Shown one piece after another: positions 8,998-28,022 of a DNA stretch of 35,238 bases. How positions within the stretch are numbered: position 1 is the first letter of the stretch; each line of letters starts with the position of its first letter. Both the position numbers and the translations under genes were made by a program. Location: positions 1 through 35,238 of the forward strand of contig JANWVQ010000144.1 in NCBI GenBank assembly GCA_025056745.1, in the 5' to 3' direction. The notes under the pieces were generated by a model, which worked only from the letters and a program-made list of their open reading frames with translations, did no database searches and was not told where the DNA came from. The DNA comes from Ignavibacterium sp. GTDB taxonomy: Bacteria; Bacteroidota; Ignavibacteria; Ignavibacteriales; Ignavibacteriaceae.

Positions 8998-10215
8998 ATG
9001 CTCGAATACATAAACCTATTAATAATCATTTTAAGTTTATTTGGAATTGCGATCGGAAGTTTTCCAAAATTCAGAATGAACAGAGCAACGATATCTTTAG
9101 TTGGTGCTACTGTATTAATAATATTAAATCAAATGAGTTTGGAGAAGGCAGTCTCATTTATTGATATTGATACTATCGTTTTGATCTTTGCAATGATGAT
9201 TATAAATATCAATTTAAGATTAGCTGGTTTTTTTAATATTATCACAAATAAAGTTATTGCTTATGCGAAAACTCCGAAACAATTATTAGTCATAATAACT
9301 TTTAGTTCAGGCATATTATCAAGTTTGTTTCTAAACGACACCATAGTAATTATGTTCACTCCAATGATAATAGAAATCGCATTACATTTAAGAAGAAATC
9401 CGATTCCATATTTGATAGCTTTGGCGACCTCTGCAAATATTGGAAGTGCCGCAACAATAGTCGGTAATCCACAAAATATGATCATAGGAGTTCAATCAGG
9501 AATTTCATTCAGCAAATTTATTTTTTATATGTTTCCAATTTCTGTAATATGTTTATTGTTAGTTATTGTAGTAATTTCTTTTTTCTACAAAAATGAATTT
9601 GGAGATGAGAGATTTAATGAGACTTTAAATTCTGAACCAAGAATTTATAAGCCATTGTTCTTCAAAAGTACAATTGTATTGTTCTTTATGCTTATTGCTT
9701 TTTTAGTTGGGCTTCCAGTTGCACCTACTGCATTAGCGGCATCTGCAATTTTACTCATAACTCGAAGAATAAAACCGGAAAGAGTATTTCTCGAGATAGA
9801 TTTTTCTCTTTTGATTTTCTTTTCTTGTCTTTTTATAATTTCACATCTAACTAATCAAATGCTAATTTCAAAAGTAGAAATATCAGATTTGAAATTTTTT
9901 AGTGAAAATCGAATAATCAATATTTCAATAATAGCTTCGATATTAAGCAACTTAATCTCAAATGTTCCAGCAGTTTTGATGTTAAGTCCATTAGTTAAAC
10001 AAATGATTGATCCTGAAAAAGTTTGGTTAGCATTAGCACTATCTTCCACATTTGCCGGTAATTTAACTTTATTAGGTTCTGTTGCTAATCTAATAGTTGT
10101 TGAGATTTCGAGAAAAAGAAATATTAATGTAAGATTTCTCGAATATCTTAAATCTGGGGTTGTAATAACATTATTGAGTTTAATAATTGGTGTTCTTTGG
10201 TTAATTATCATATAA
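8998..10215 (+). CDS. ArsB/SLC13-like ion transporter (IT superfamily)
   Basis: A 405-aa inner-membrane protein with about 10-11 helices. It has the ion-transporter superfamily repeats: FLNDTIVIMFTPMIIEIA (about 117-134) and SANIGSAATIVGNPQNMIIG (about 144-163) in the first half, and NLISNVPAVLML with SSTFAGNLTLLGSVANLIV in the second. The NxxxT and GNPxN motifs are those of ArsB/YbiR/NhaD-type carriers. It could move an inorganic anion, a dicarboxylate or Na+; no ars genes are nearby, so arsenite is not favoured. Its stop codon overlaps the T-run of a minus-strand small-RNA terminator. Confidence 0.85.
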   Translation: MLEYINLLIIILSLFGIAIGSFPKFRMNRATISLVGATVLIILNQMSLEKAVSFIDIDTIVLIFAMMIININLRLAGFFNIITNKVIAYAKTPKQLLVIITFSSGILSSLFLNDTIVIMFTPMIIEIALHLRRNPIPYLIALATSANIGSAATIVGNPQNMIIGVQSGISFSKFIFYMFPISVICLLLVIVVISFFYKNEFGDERFNETLNSEPRIYKPLFFKSTIVLFFMLIAFLVGLPVAPTALAASAILLITRRIKPERVFLEIDFSLLIFFSCLFIISHLTNQMLISKVEISDLKFFSENRIINISIIASILSNLISNVPAVLMLSPLVKQMIDPEKVWLALALSSTFAGNLTLLGSVANLIVVEISRKRNINVRFLEYLKSGVVITLLSLIIGVLWLIII

Positions 10216-10241
10216 AAAACCCGATGACCAAAGCCATCGGG
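10214..10241 (-). terminator. Rho-independent terminator of the candidate small RNA
   Basis: Minus-strand arms CCCGATG (10241-10235, read from the complement) and CATCGGG (10226-10220) pair over 7 bp around loop GCTTTGGT. Six T residues follow (10219-10214). On the plus strand no T-run follows the hairpin, so it does not serve the upstream ArsB-like gene as a classical terminator. Confidence 0.8.
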
Positions 10242-10284
10242 CTGCCCATACAAAAGGTCTGGGGGTTAACCTCCTGTATAATGC
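10214..10284 (-). ncRNA. Candidate small RNA (two hairpins, own promoter and terminator)
   Basis: On the minus strand an 11-bp stem is formed by 10279-10269 (ATACAGGAGGT) and 10258-10248 (ACCTTTTGTAT), with two G-U pairs and a 10-base loop UAACCCCCAG. On the plus strand those two pairs would be A-C mismatches, so the minus strand is the RNA. A short spacer leads to a rho-independent terminator: CCCGATG/CATCGGG arms, 8-base loop, then six T. A TTG-N20-TAAATTTG promoter precedes it. Both neighbouring genes are on the plus strand, so neither explains a minus-strand terminator here. Expected transcript is about 70 nt, possibly a trans-acting regulator with a C-rich loop. The start is inferred from the promoter. 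Confidence 0.65.
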
Positions 10285-10288
10285 TTTG

Positions 10289-10319
10289 CAAATTTAACTC
10301 ATATCACTCAATAATTCAA
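10289..10319 (-). promoter_or_regulatory. Candidate Bacteroidota-type promoter for the small RNA
   Basis: Minus strand TTG (10319-10317), 20-base spacer, then TAAATTTG (10296-10289), an exact TAnnTTTG match. A start about 5-7 bases beyond the -7 box would place the RNA 5' end near 10284, just before the first stem. Confidence 0.65.
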
Positions 10320-10372: not shown

Positions 10373-11380
10373 ATGAATACAAAGTCCAAAAAATTTAGAA
10401 AAATATCTTTATTAATCTTAATTCTTCAATTTTTCATTGTGGTCTATCTTAAGTATTACAATCAATTTTTATCAATAAAAAATTTCGATCCATTATTGTC
10501 AGGCAACATTATAACATTCATTATTTATTTTGTAATAATTATTCAATTTCTGTTATCAAAAAGAAGTATAAATCTCAATTATAAAATTGTCCTAACAATA
10601 ATTTTTTTCAGCTATTTATTCCTTGCTTTAGGATTTATTTCAACAGTTGTAAAATTACCTTTCAATAAATTTTATTTCTTCGGTCAATATGGTAATAAAC
10701 TTTTTACGGGAGGTTGTTTTACCTTATATCTTTTTTTTCTTATTTACTTATTTTTCTATTGTTATTTTTCAAAAAACAACAAAAAAATATTTGATAAAAA
10801 CTCATTCTTTGCAACAATTTTAGTTATGATTTTATTCTTAGTATTAGCTGGTTTGTTTATTTCTCTAAATGAAAGTGAAGCTAAAAATTATGTCTTATCC
10901 AATAAAGGGAAAAAAGTTCTTGTTGTGTTAGGAGCAGCAGTTTGGTCAGATAATAAACCCAGTCCAATTTTATCTGCAAGAGTATTAAAAGCAGCAGAGC
11001 TTTCAAATAAATTTACATTTGATAAAATTTATTTTACTGGTGGAAATGCTCCAGGAGAAATGACAGAGGCTGAAGTGGCTTTTGAATACTTTAAGTCATT
11101 AAATCCATATTTTGAAAATGTTGAACTTGAAAAAAATACTACTTCAACAAATGAACAAATTCAATTCATTAAAAATCAAATTATTCCAAAATATCCAGAC
11201 TACGAGATCATAGTTATTTCAGATTCTTTTCATCTTATTCGAATAAAGGAGATAAGCAAGTTTCATAAAATTGATATTAAAACAATTGCCTCCGATTTTT
11301 CTATGAAATTTGGCTCTAATCTTTATAATAGAATAAGAGAATCATTAGCTTTATCAGTTTTTTGGTTATTTTCAATATAG
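10373..11380 (+). CDS. YdcF/SanA-like membrane protein (DUF218)
   Basis: A 335-aa protein when started at ATG 10373. A TTG 24 bases upstream is in frame but has no better ribosome site. The N-terminal half has about five hydrophobic helices. The C-terminal part (from about 170) is a DUF218 domain with KVLVVLGAAVW, SPILSARVLKAAEL, IYFTGGNA and IIVISDSFHLIRI. Related proteins (ElyC, SanA, YdcF) are tied to envelope integrity and lipid-carrier or peptidoglycan metabolism, but their chemistry is poorly defined. It lies 7 bases before nusB and probably shares its transcript. Confidence 0.8.
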   Translation: MNTKSKKFRKISLLILILQFFIVVYLKYYNQFLSIKNFDPLLSGNIITFIIYFVIIIQFLLSKRSINLNYKIVLTIIFFSYLFLALGFISTVVKLPFNKFYFFGQYGNKLFTGGCFTLYLFFLIYLFFYCYFSKNNKKIFDKNSFFATILVMILFLVLAGLFISLNESEAKNYVLSNKGKKVLVVLGAAVWSDNKPSPILSARVLKAAELSNKFTFDKIYFTGGNAPGEMTEAEVAFEYFKSLNPYFENVELEKNTTSTNEQIQFIKNQIIPKYPDYEIIVISDSFHLIRIKEISKFHKIDIKTIASDFSMKFGSNLYNRIRESLALSVFWLFSI

Positions 11381-11871: not shown

Positions 11872-13092
11872 GTGAAAAAATATAAAAATATCTTAGTCTG
11901 GTCATTATTTGATTTTGCTAACACTTCTTTTGCAATTATCGTTGCAACCTTTCTTTACGCTGTTTATTTCAAAAAAGTTGTTGCATCAGGAGAACCTATA
12001 GGTGATTTGTATTGGTCTTATGCTACAAGCCTGTCAATGTTTATAACTGCTTTAATCTCACCAATATTAGGAGCTATTTCTGATTATTCAGCAGGTAAAA
12101 AAAGATTTTTACTATTCTTTACATTACTTTGCATCTTATCTACAGCCTCACTTTATTTTGTAGATGAAGGTGATATTTTTTATGGCATTATACTTTTTGT
12201 TTTAGCAAGCATTGGTTTTGAAGCTGGTTTAGTTTTTTACGACGCCTTTCTTCCTGAAATCACTGAACCTAAAAATTATGGAAGAGTAAGTGGTTATGGT
12301 TTTGCTGCAGGATATTTTGGATCATTAGCATCTTTAGGTTTAGTTTTTCCATTCATTAGTGATAATAAAATAAAAGAGACTTTCATAGTTGCTGCTTTAT
12401 TCTTTCTGATTTTTTCATTACCACTCTTTATTTACTTAAAAGACTCCAGAAAACAAGTCAATAAAACTGAAAGCTATTTTAAGATAGGATATAAAAGAGT
12501 CTGGGATACTATATCACACTTGAAGAACTACAAGAACTTGGCAATGTTCCTACTTTCATTTTTCTTTTACATAGAAGGTATAAATACAGTTATTTATTTT
12601 GCTGGAAACTATGCAAGTACAACAATGAAATTCAGTGAGATGGAACTTATTTACTTTTTCCTAACTGTGCAAACGACTGCTATAGTAGGTTCAATTATTT
12701 TTGGAATAATATCGGACTCGATTGGACAGAAAAAAACAATAATCATTACTCTTTTAATATGGATAATTACTGTCGTTCTCGCTTATCTAGTTCATACTAA
12801 AGAGGAATTTTATATCGTAGGTTTATTAGCTGGTTTAGCAATGGGTTCAAGTCAATCAACAAGTAGAAGTTTGATGTCTTTACTTACTCCTAATGAAAAA
12901 AGAACAGAATTCTTTGGTTTTTATTCTTTCTTTGGTAAAAGCTCTGCAATAGTTGGACCTCTTGTCTTTGGGTTTGTAAGTTATATCACTAATTCGCAGA
13001 GATTAGCAATTTTTTCAATAATATTTTTCTTCTTGATAGGATTATTTCTATTATTAAAAGTTAAAGAAGTAAAGGCTAATCCGAGCTTCTAA
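11872..13092 (+). CDS. MFS transporter, UMF1 (Atg22-like) family
   Basis: A 406-aa inner-membrane protein with about 12 helices, starting at GTG 7 bases after the nusB stop. The N-terminus VWSLFDFANTSFAIIVATFLYAVYF is the UMF1/Atg22-like signature. The segment GLAMGSSQSTSRSLMSLLTPNEKRTEFFGFYSFFGKSSA (about 322-360) is the strongly conserved loop of this family. Eukaryotic Atg22 exports amino acids from vacuoles, but the bacterial substrate is unknown. The last 17 bases overlap the convergent CDF gene, so no terminator separates them. Confidence 0.88.
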   Translation: MKKYKNILVWSLFDFANTSFAIIVATFLYAVYFKKVVASGEPIGDLYWSYATSLSMFITALISPILGAISDYSAGKKRFLLFFTLLCILSTASLYFVDEGDIFYGIILFVLASIGFEAGLVFYDAFLPEITEPKNYGRVSGYGFAAGYFGSLASLGLVFPFISDNKIKETFIVAALFFLIFSLPLFIYLKDSRKQVNKTESYFKIGYKRVWDTISHLKNYKNLAMFLLSFFFYIEGINTVIYFAGNYASTTMKFSEMELIYFFLTVQTTAIVGSIIFGIISDSIGQKKTIIITLLIWIITVVLAYLVHTKEEFYIVGLLAGLAMGSSQSTSRSLMSLLTPNEKRTEFFGFYSFFGKSSAIVGPLVFGFVSYITNSQRLAIFSIIFFFLIGLFLLLKVKEVKANPSF

Positions 13093-27490: not shown

Positions 27491-27523
27491 AATTCCTCCT
27501 AAAGTAAGATTAAACAACAAAAT

Positions 27524-27720
27524 CCGCAACTGCCGTGCGATAAATAGGGAAAACCCTATAAATCACGGTGGGTATGCTCTCGAACGCTTTTTACTTCCAC
27601 TGTTGTGTCTCAAAGGACACAATTTCTGGATTACCAGAATGAGGCCTGTAATACACGCCGAAGTCGCATTCCCTAATGGTATTACTTGTTAGTTTTCCAT
27701 TTATTTTTACGGCAGTGCGG
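27524..27720 (-). ncRNA. ssrS: 6S RNA
   Basis: The 197-base region between zapA and rny folds, on the minus strand, into a rod. The closing stem pairs 27720-27709 (CCGCACTGCCGT) with 27536-27524 (ACGGCAGTTGCGG, one bulged T) and continues with 27704-27692 (ATAAATGGAAAAC) against 27554-27540, with a 2-base bulge. A central bubble follows (27691-27674 and 27569-27555, 18 and 15 bases), closed by 27673-27666 with 27577-27570 (GGGAATGC/GCATACCC). A terminal arm ends in TTGTGTC/GACACAA. Size, rod shape, bubble and zapA linkage fit 6S RNA, which binds RNA polymerase holoenzyme in stationary phase. No promoter is seen, so processing from the zapA transcript is likely. Confidence 0.82.
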
Positions 27721-27725
27721 AAAAC

Positions 27726-28022
27726 TCAGGATGGTTTAGATACATCAGATTGACTTAAAAGAAGCTTTATTCTTTTTATTTTGTCTGAAGACTGAATTAA
27801 AAATTCTCTGTTTTTAGTTCTTTCAATAAAAAGATCATAAGCTATATTCAAAGCTGCGATAATCGCAATTGTTTGATAAGGTTGATCAGGCAATTCCTGT
27901 TTTGTCTCCTCTAAAATTCTATTTACATAAATTGCCAAATCCTTAGCAATTTCTTCATCATCAACAAGCAGAGAATATTCTTTATCTAATATTTTTATTT
28001 TCAGCTTCTTTTTTTCCGTCAT
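27726..28022 (-). CDS. zapA: Cell division protein ZapA
   Basis: A 98-aa FtsZ-ring stabiliser. The N-terminal beta region KKLKIKILDKEYSLLVDDEE and the middle LAIYVNRILEETKQ match ZapA. The family's helical segment, with TIAIIAALNIAYDLFIERT (about 55-73), forms the dimer and tetramer coiled coil. Length is normal. It follows a small coiled-coil gene by 27 bases and its stop lies 5 bases before the 6S RNA closing stem, the same zapA-6S linkage known from gamma-proteobacteria. Confidence 0.9.
   Translation of the reverse strand: MTEKKKLKIKILDKEYSLLVDDEEIAKDLAIYVNRILEETKQELPDQPYQTIAIIAALNIAYDLFIERTKNREFLIQSSDKIKRIKLLLSQSDVSKPS

Follow-up and report, generated by a model that had tools for sequence, protein, structure and literature searches.

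We predict with high confidence that positions 10214–10284 of the minus strand form a stand-alone small RNA gene within the window, the whole 35,238-nucleotide stretch of Ignavibacterium sp. DNA analysed here. By sequence comparison, the RNA of ~70 nt belongs to a family that is conserved and uncatalogued. Its prediction draws on the fold and on covariance matches, the 5′ end being placed from the −10 box. We consider it probable that the RNA acts in trans, independently of Hfq, by pairing through a C-rich apical loop, and this is the best reading of the evidence laid out below.

A predicted small RNA gene between two plus-strand genes

According to the original prediction, the minus strand carries a self-contained small RNA gene between two plus-strand genes, and the anatomy of the locus largely agrees with it. 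A −35 element TTG (10317–10319) is followed, after the 20-base spacer that had been described, by the −10 element TAAATTTG (10289–10296), giving the full promoter score of 9 of 9; TTG-N20-TAnnTTTG is the consensus form for the housekeeping sigma factor of Bacteroidota. In all 12 copies of the closely related type A RNAs defined below, the TTG keeps the same register, 29 bases ahead of the model start, a count that does not represent 12 independent events because these copies are related. Scored against TTG-N-TAnnTTTG (maximum 9), seven type A copies reach 8 and five reach 9; a score of 8 is also reached by about 10% of base shuffles, which preserve base content only, and here too the copies are related.

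Downstream of the promoter, hairpin 1 (10248–10279) is built on an 11-pair stem (10279–10269 with 10258–10248) that includes two G-U pairs (10274 with 10253 and 10273 with 10254). Below the stem, 10280 and 10247 form a further U-G pair, and two outer pairs join 10284 to 10244 and 10283 to 10245; the hairpin is capped by the apical loop UAACCCCCAG (10259–10268), whose run of five cytosines (C5) occupies 10265–10261. An intrinsic terminator hairpin with its T6 tract follows (10214–10243, T6 at 10219–10214); the six T are as predicted, whereas the stem has 11 pairs rather than seven, closing on a four-base UUUG loop. A scan of 1 kb gave one terminator-like site, where 0.1 would be expected. Both flanking genes lie on the plus strand: a CitMHS family transporter gene (8998–10215; PF03600, 1.1e-61) convergent to the small RNA, and a gene for a DUF218 protein (10373–11380; PF02698, 6.8e-14) divergent from it.

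The minus strand folds with a minimum free energy of −35.8 kcal/mol (z −5.14), equalled by none of 200 shuffles, compared with a z of −0.63, equalled by 46 of 200 shuffles, for the plus strand. The structure is therefore specific to the minus strand, in keeping with the earlier claim that the stem with its two G-U pairs forms there. All five loop cytosines have a predicted unpaired probability of 1.0, which bears out the C5 loop, and the predicted loop and promoter together would place an exposed C-run in the apical loop of a putative stand-alone transcription unit.

Close relatives keep the loop on a covarying stem

A covariance search, which the original prediction had proposed, found relatives with compensatory stem changes around an invariant loop. 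We define type A as the close relatives of the window RNA that score at least 91 bits with covariance model R1, itself trained on type A only; the next score below is 66. By this measure type A is found in 11 of 80 family genomes, as 12 copies: in all six genomes of genus g1, in both of g12 (one with an extra phage copy) and in three of six of g26, the other three giving no type A match in the R1 search. When R1 was run on 294 class genomes, nothing outside the family exceeded 37.1 bits. Loss of both stem and loop with the flanking genes retained, named at the outset as the outcome that would count against the gene, was seen in none of the six genus genomes.

At the DNA level, nine of 59 genomes (own genome included) were matched, namely the own genome, five others of the genus, G016 (twice), G006 and G055, of which the G006 and G055 matches span only 24–26 bases and do not contain the RNA. 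A pattern scan of named genomes returned 13 stretches, 10 of them in Ignavibacterium, Ignavibacteriaceae or Ignavibacteriales assemblies; the other three (L113, L119 and L122, from a beta-proteobacterium, Citrobacter and a Porphyromonadaceae bin) were rejected, either for want of a two-hairpin structure or for scores no higher than 17.9 bits. Among the R1 and R2 matches beyond family f1 that were read, most were plain terminators, and L055, L056 and L067 are type B RNAs, described below.

All 12 type A copies carry the ACCCCCAGACC loop. In alignment A2 (seven sequences), 100% of 152 pair cells are paired and six of 22 pairs have changed on both sides. A search of 27 loci supplied the larger alignment A4, whose 25 matches (24 distinct) have E ≤ 1e-10; 96.9% of its 522 pair cells are paired, and changes on both sides occur in 16 of the 22 pairs, counts that lean to the structure in A4, as in A7, since both were fitted to models. 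None of 500 shuffles of A4 attains any of five measures, and structures slid along the alignment reach at most 48.6% paired and at most six pairs with both-side changes. Both-side changes affect 10 of 12 pairs in the hairpin 1 stem and six of 10 in the terminator; one outer pair covaries (columns 8–52) and the other is nearly constant. The loop contains C4 or longer in 25 of 25 A4 rows while the stem letters vary, with A4 biased to rows with a C5 loop because the model that gathered it already contains that loop. A C-run kept on a varying stem fits a loop that pairs or binds. Alignments A2 and A6 were made with MAFFT, with the structure written by hand; A7 includes two loci entered twice; A3 and A5 contained chance terminators and are excluded from the counts; and model R2 has one stem pair mis-registered (columns 11–51, not 11–50), the pair counts quoted here using the right columns.

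A broader group of C-rich-loop RNAs within the class

Type A appears to be one branch, restricted to its lineage, of a larger group of RNAs with C-rich loops found within this class. The own genome also encodes an RNA of type B (89 nt; G000:C37:53471–53559, equivalent to L072 1972–2060), flanked by a small-protein gene without a Pfam match and by a DUF3098-like gene (24.9 bits, cut-off 25), after which comes a dprA-like gene, named by eye. Type B often lies directly upstream of a DUF3098-like gene, the gap being 4 to 32 bases in many loci, and may function both as a leader and as a small RNA. Across 19 type B sequences, 98.8% of pair cells are paired and 15 of 22 pairs have changed on both sides.

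With an E-value limit of 1e-4, covariance model R3, which was built from type B sequences alone, has matches in 143 of the 391 class genomes, most of these matches being taken without letter-by-letter reading; among the genomes listed, 40 of family f1 have an R3 match and none is without one, 228 unmatched genomes standing outside that list. We compared 52 R3 matches (50 distinct sequences) from 53 sources picked for holding hits. Loop 1 contains CCCC in all 52. In the terminator loop, CCCC is present in 37 of the 43 distinct type B sequences, and all seven sequences of other types lack it there. The letters flanking the C-run vary by type (ACCCCCAG, CCUCCCCCAAG and CUCCCCU).

R1 finds the own-genome type B RNA at 38 bits (2.1e-9) and R3 finds the window RNA at 35.1 bits (5.2e-7), both E-values being rough. 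Because each model finds the other type, types A and B likely share ancestry, as far as sequence can tell; the alternative is a shared simple architecture. The g26 genomes carry several diverged copies, and G088 has 11 R2 matches; in eight of these the loop has a run of at least C4, and in the other three it does not. In genome G064, three type B copies stand in tandem (L180 1351–1759).

Putative pairing through the C-rich loop

In the reading that we favour, the RNA's own promoter and terminator would produce a stable two-hairpin transcript of ~70 nt, in which hairpin 1 would display the invariant, exposed ACCCCCA loop. The C5 loop would then start pairing with a G-rich (UGGGGGU-like) stretch in a few mRNAs and so alter their translation or stability, making the RNA a trans-acting antisense regulator that works without Hfq, possibly assisted by an RRM protein. 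The loop-pairing mechanism as such we regard as somewhat probable. With a profile model, no Hfq match was found in the own genome, a Bacteroides control being likewise missed; the RRM model gave two matches there (L155 and L156) and was also positive in the Bacteroides control.

The calculated pairing energy of the type A loop is −18.5 kcal/mol with a perfect CUGGGGGUUA, −6.5 kcal/mol with UAAGGAGGUU and −4.2 kcal/mol with AAGGAGG, while the CUCC-containing loops of types B and C reach −6.2 and −8.1 kcal/mol, respectively, with AAGGAGG. The sequences ahead of start codons were sampled in 435 kb with 294 genes (133 from G005 and 161 from G000), the starts being a noisy set of first ATGs of long frames. 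GGAG occurs at −20 to −3 in 30 of 133 and 17 of 161 genes, against four and six at −60 to −43, so sites of this kind are found in a minority of genes; their presence in this Ignavibacterium sample contrasts with the pattern lacking Shine–Dalgarno sites that is reported for Bacteroidetes and Chlorobi. GGGGG was found at −20 to −3 in none of the 294 sampled starts and GGGG in three. On these data, the suggestion that the C5 loop pairs with ribosome sites is therefore unsupported for type A, given the weak energy with AAGGAGG and the lack of G5 upstream of the sampled starts.

Sites outside this region were also considered. With at most one mismatch, CTGGGGGTTA has 248 sites in the six genus genomes against 181 for the reversed control. 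Sites exceed controls in five of the six (35/26 in G003, 62/29 in G005, 36/35 in G001, 42/24 in G004 and 38/25 in G002) and fall below them in the own genome (35 against 42); codon use could be behind the excess. TGGGGGT has 45 sites in the own genome, comprising the small RNA gene and 44 others, of which 29 are sense in frames, nine antisense in frames and six between frames, four of these six lying in tRNA or tmRNA genes. A reversed-pattern control is void for this 7-mer, which is identical backwards. Leaving aside three early-coding sites (L218, L249 and L252, each sense and at most 80 bases from the frame's first start), we found no conserved target and no start-proximal enrichment among these own-genome sites. 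A G5 upstream of dnaE was considered as a target and rejected as unconserved, being present in two of the five genomes (own included) in which the dnaE start was read. The sites in tRNA-Trp, tRNA-Tyr and tmRNA genes (L250, L253 and L244) are probably due to chance; the tRNA-Trp site lies 39 bases ahead of a small secE-looking frame, named by eye.

The lack of a conserved mRNA site in this search also gives weight to a different role for the loop, as a site for a protein, for instance an RRM protein, which the RNA would titrate as a decoy. A protein-binding role would keep the same loop, and the constancy of the loop on a freely varying stem speaks for it as much as for pairing; the two RRM matches in a genome without an Hfq match suit it as well, and the C-run repeated in the terminator loop of type B (37 of 43) is what a multivalent decoy might show. 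The differing flank letters of the three loop types, however, fit different pairing partners equally well, and we judge the decoy role unlikely, if the most serious of the alternatives to antisense pairing.

Genomic neighbourhood and a phage copy

Of the 11 chromosomal type A copies, 10 adjoin pdxJ, CitMHS or AbgT, and seven adjoin CitMHS itself. The exception, in G089, has none of the three and has two neighbours in common with G088, as judged by eye. No CitMHS was found in the stretch examined around the G016, G094, G091, G089 and phage copies, five places where the RNA is retained.

The frequent adjacency to CitMHS, whose stop codon in the window (10213–10215, plus) is overlapped by the T tract of the small RNA (10219–10214), raises the question of a cis element, in which the hairpins would act only on a neighbouring transcript, terminating or modulating it, and yield no RNA of their own; the leader-like position of type B, 4 to 32 bases ahead of DUF3098-like genes, could be read in the same way. 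Both window neighbours, however, are on the opposite strand, and the plus strand folds no better than its shuffles and has no T tract after the hairpin. Moreover, the RNA is retained at the five copies where no CitMHS was found nearby, and an element that served only as a terminator would have no need of an unchanging C5 loop or of a promoter at a constant distance. Together these points make a purely cis-acting element improbable. A small protein gene is more improbable by far: the ATG in GUAUGGG, 20 bases after AGGAGG, opens a 13-residue frame and recurs in eight of 12 type A copies, seven of which would encode similar peptides, but the ATG is missing in four copies, the window frame differs from the other seven, AGGAGG lies within the stem and is AGAAGG in the other 11 copies, and the frame traverses the terminator.

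One of the type A copies of G016 (L011, 1475–1553) is close to capsid genes. Viral contig L015 is identical to L011 over 2,394 bases around the RNA (its type A copy lying at ~12900–13000) and encodes portal, terminase, head maturation protease, major head and scaffolding proteins. Judged by this gene content, one type A copy is in a tailed phage, near the head genes. Of six stretches that matched the pattern in viral contigs, only that in L015 contains the full RNA, the other five lacking the second stem half, and the exact type B and type C patterns had no match in viral contigs. Searching a phage collection gave a single weak hit, which covers 25% of the query and lies in the record of a metagenomic phage.

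Relation to known RNAs and implications

The window RNA has no match in Rfam 15 at the gathering score or at E ≤ 5, the latter scan covering nine loci; with the relatives found by covariance search, this agrees with a gene outside the catalogued families. Two diverged copies have weak Rfam matches that fall well short of the cut-offs: L093 scores 22.1 bits with NsiR1 (cut-off 39), and L096 scores 17.5 bits with Rev39_5p_UTR (cut-off 88). Elsewhere in the window, Rfam places a 6S RNA at 27517–27726 on the minus strand (48.3 bits, cut-off 46.4).

C-rich loops are also found in 6C of Actinobacteria, which we take to be RF01066. B11 and 6C are one RNA, as the reference list of the B11 paper also suggests. 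The Rfam scans gave no match to 6C, and in contrast to 6C/B11 the window RNA has only one C-rich loop, its C5 loop, together with a UUUG terminator loop. In the excerpts used here, B11 is described with two C-rich loops, one of them in the terminator, and provides a precedent for pairing between a C-rich loop and a G tract (PMC12395582); type B usually follows this same two-C-loop plan. Excerpts of the report on sX13 of Xanthomonas describe an Hfq-independent RNA with apical 4C motifs and targets with 4G motifs, the latter occurring in 30.71% of the host's chromosomal genes (PMC3771888). From this partial account, the stable stem-loops with C-rich apical loops resemble those described here by description, not by sequence; sX13 differs in having three stem-loops, in its phylum and in its polA locus, and the wide occurrence of 4G motifs there contrasts with GGGG at −20 to −3 in three of 294 starts here.

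RbpB is an RRM protein. The FopS/GibS RNAs of Bacteroides, in the parts of the report used here, are a multicopy family that is bound by an RRM-type protein, has canonical sigma-ABfr promoters and includes a tailed-phage copy (PMC11697453). On that description they resemble the window RNA in being multicopy, in a Bacteroidota-type promoter and in a tailed-phage copy. FopS has a conserved single-stranded 5′ seed followed by one terminator hairpin; the window RNA lacks such a seed and has its conserved letters in a hairpin loop instead. LhrC and RsaE/RoxS carry C-rich motifs, are from another phylum and are alike by description alone. LhrC of Listeria is reported to be multicopy (PMC4132741). 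In the open-access papers searched, we found no report of small RNAs in Ignavibacteria.

A broader view, which we put forward tentatively and consider doubtful, is that the C-rich-loop RNAs form one ancient, class-wide riboregulatory system of the Ignavibacteria that is free of Hfq, perhaps works with RRM proteins, operates in bacteria with Shine–Dalgarno sites at only a minority of their genes, has paralogs with different loop seeds (as the eight G088 copies with C4 or more would illustrate) and has been acquired by a tailed phage. For a lineage in which Hfq gave no match, a conserved RNA family that is missing from the catalogues and has a seed-like loop would offer a handle on riboregulation, and the phage copy suggests that the RNA may be worth hijacking.
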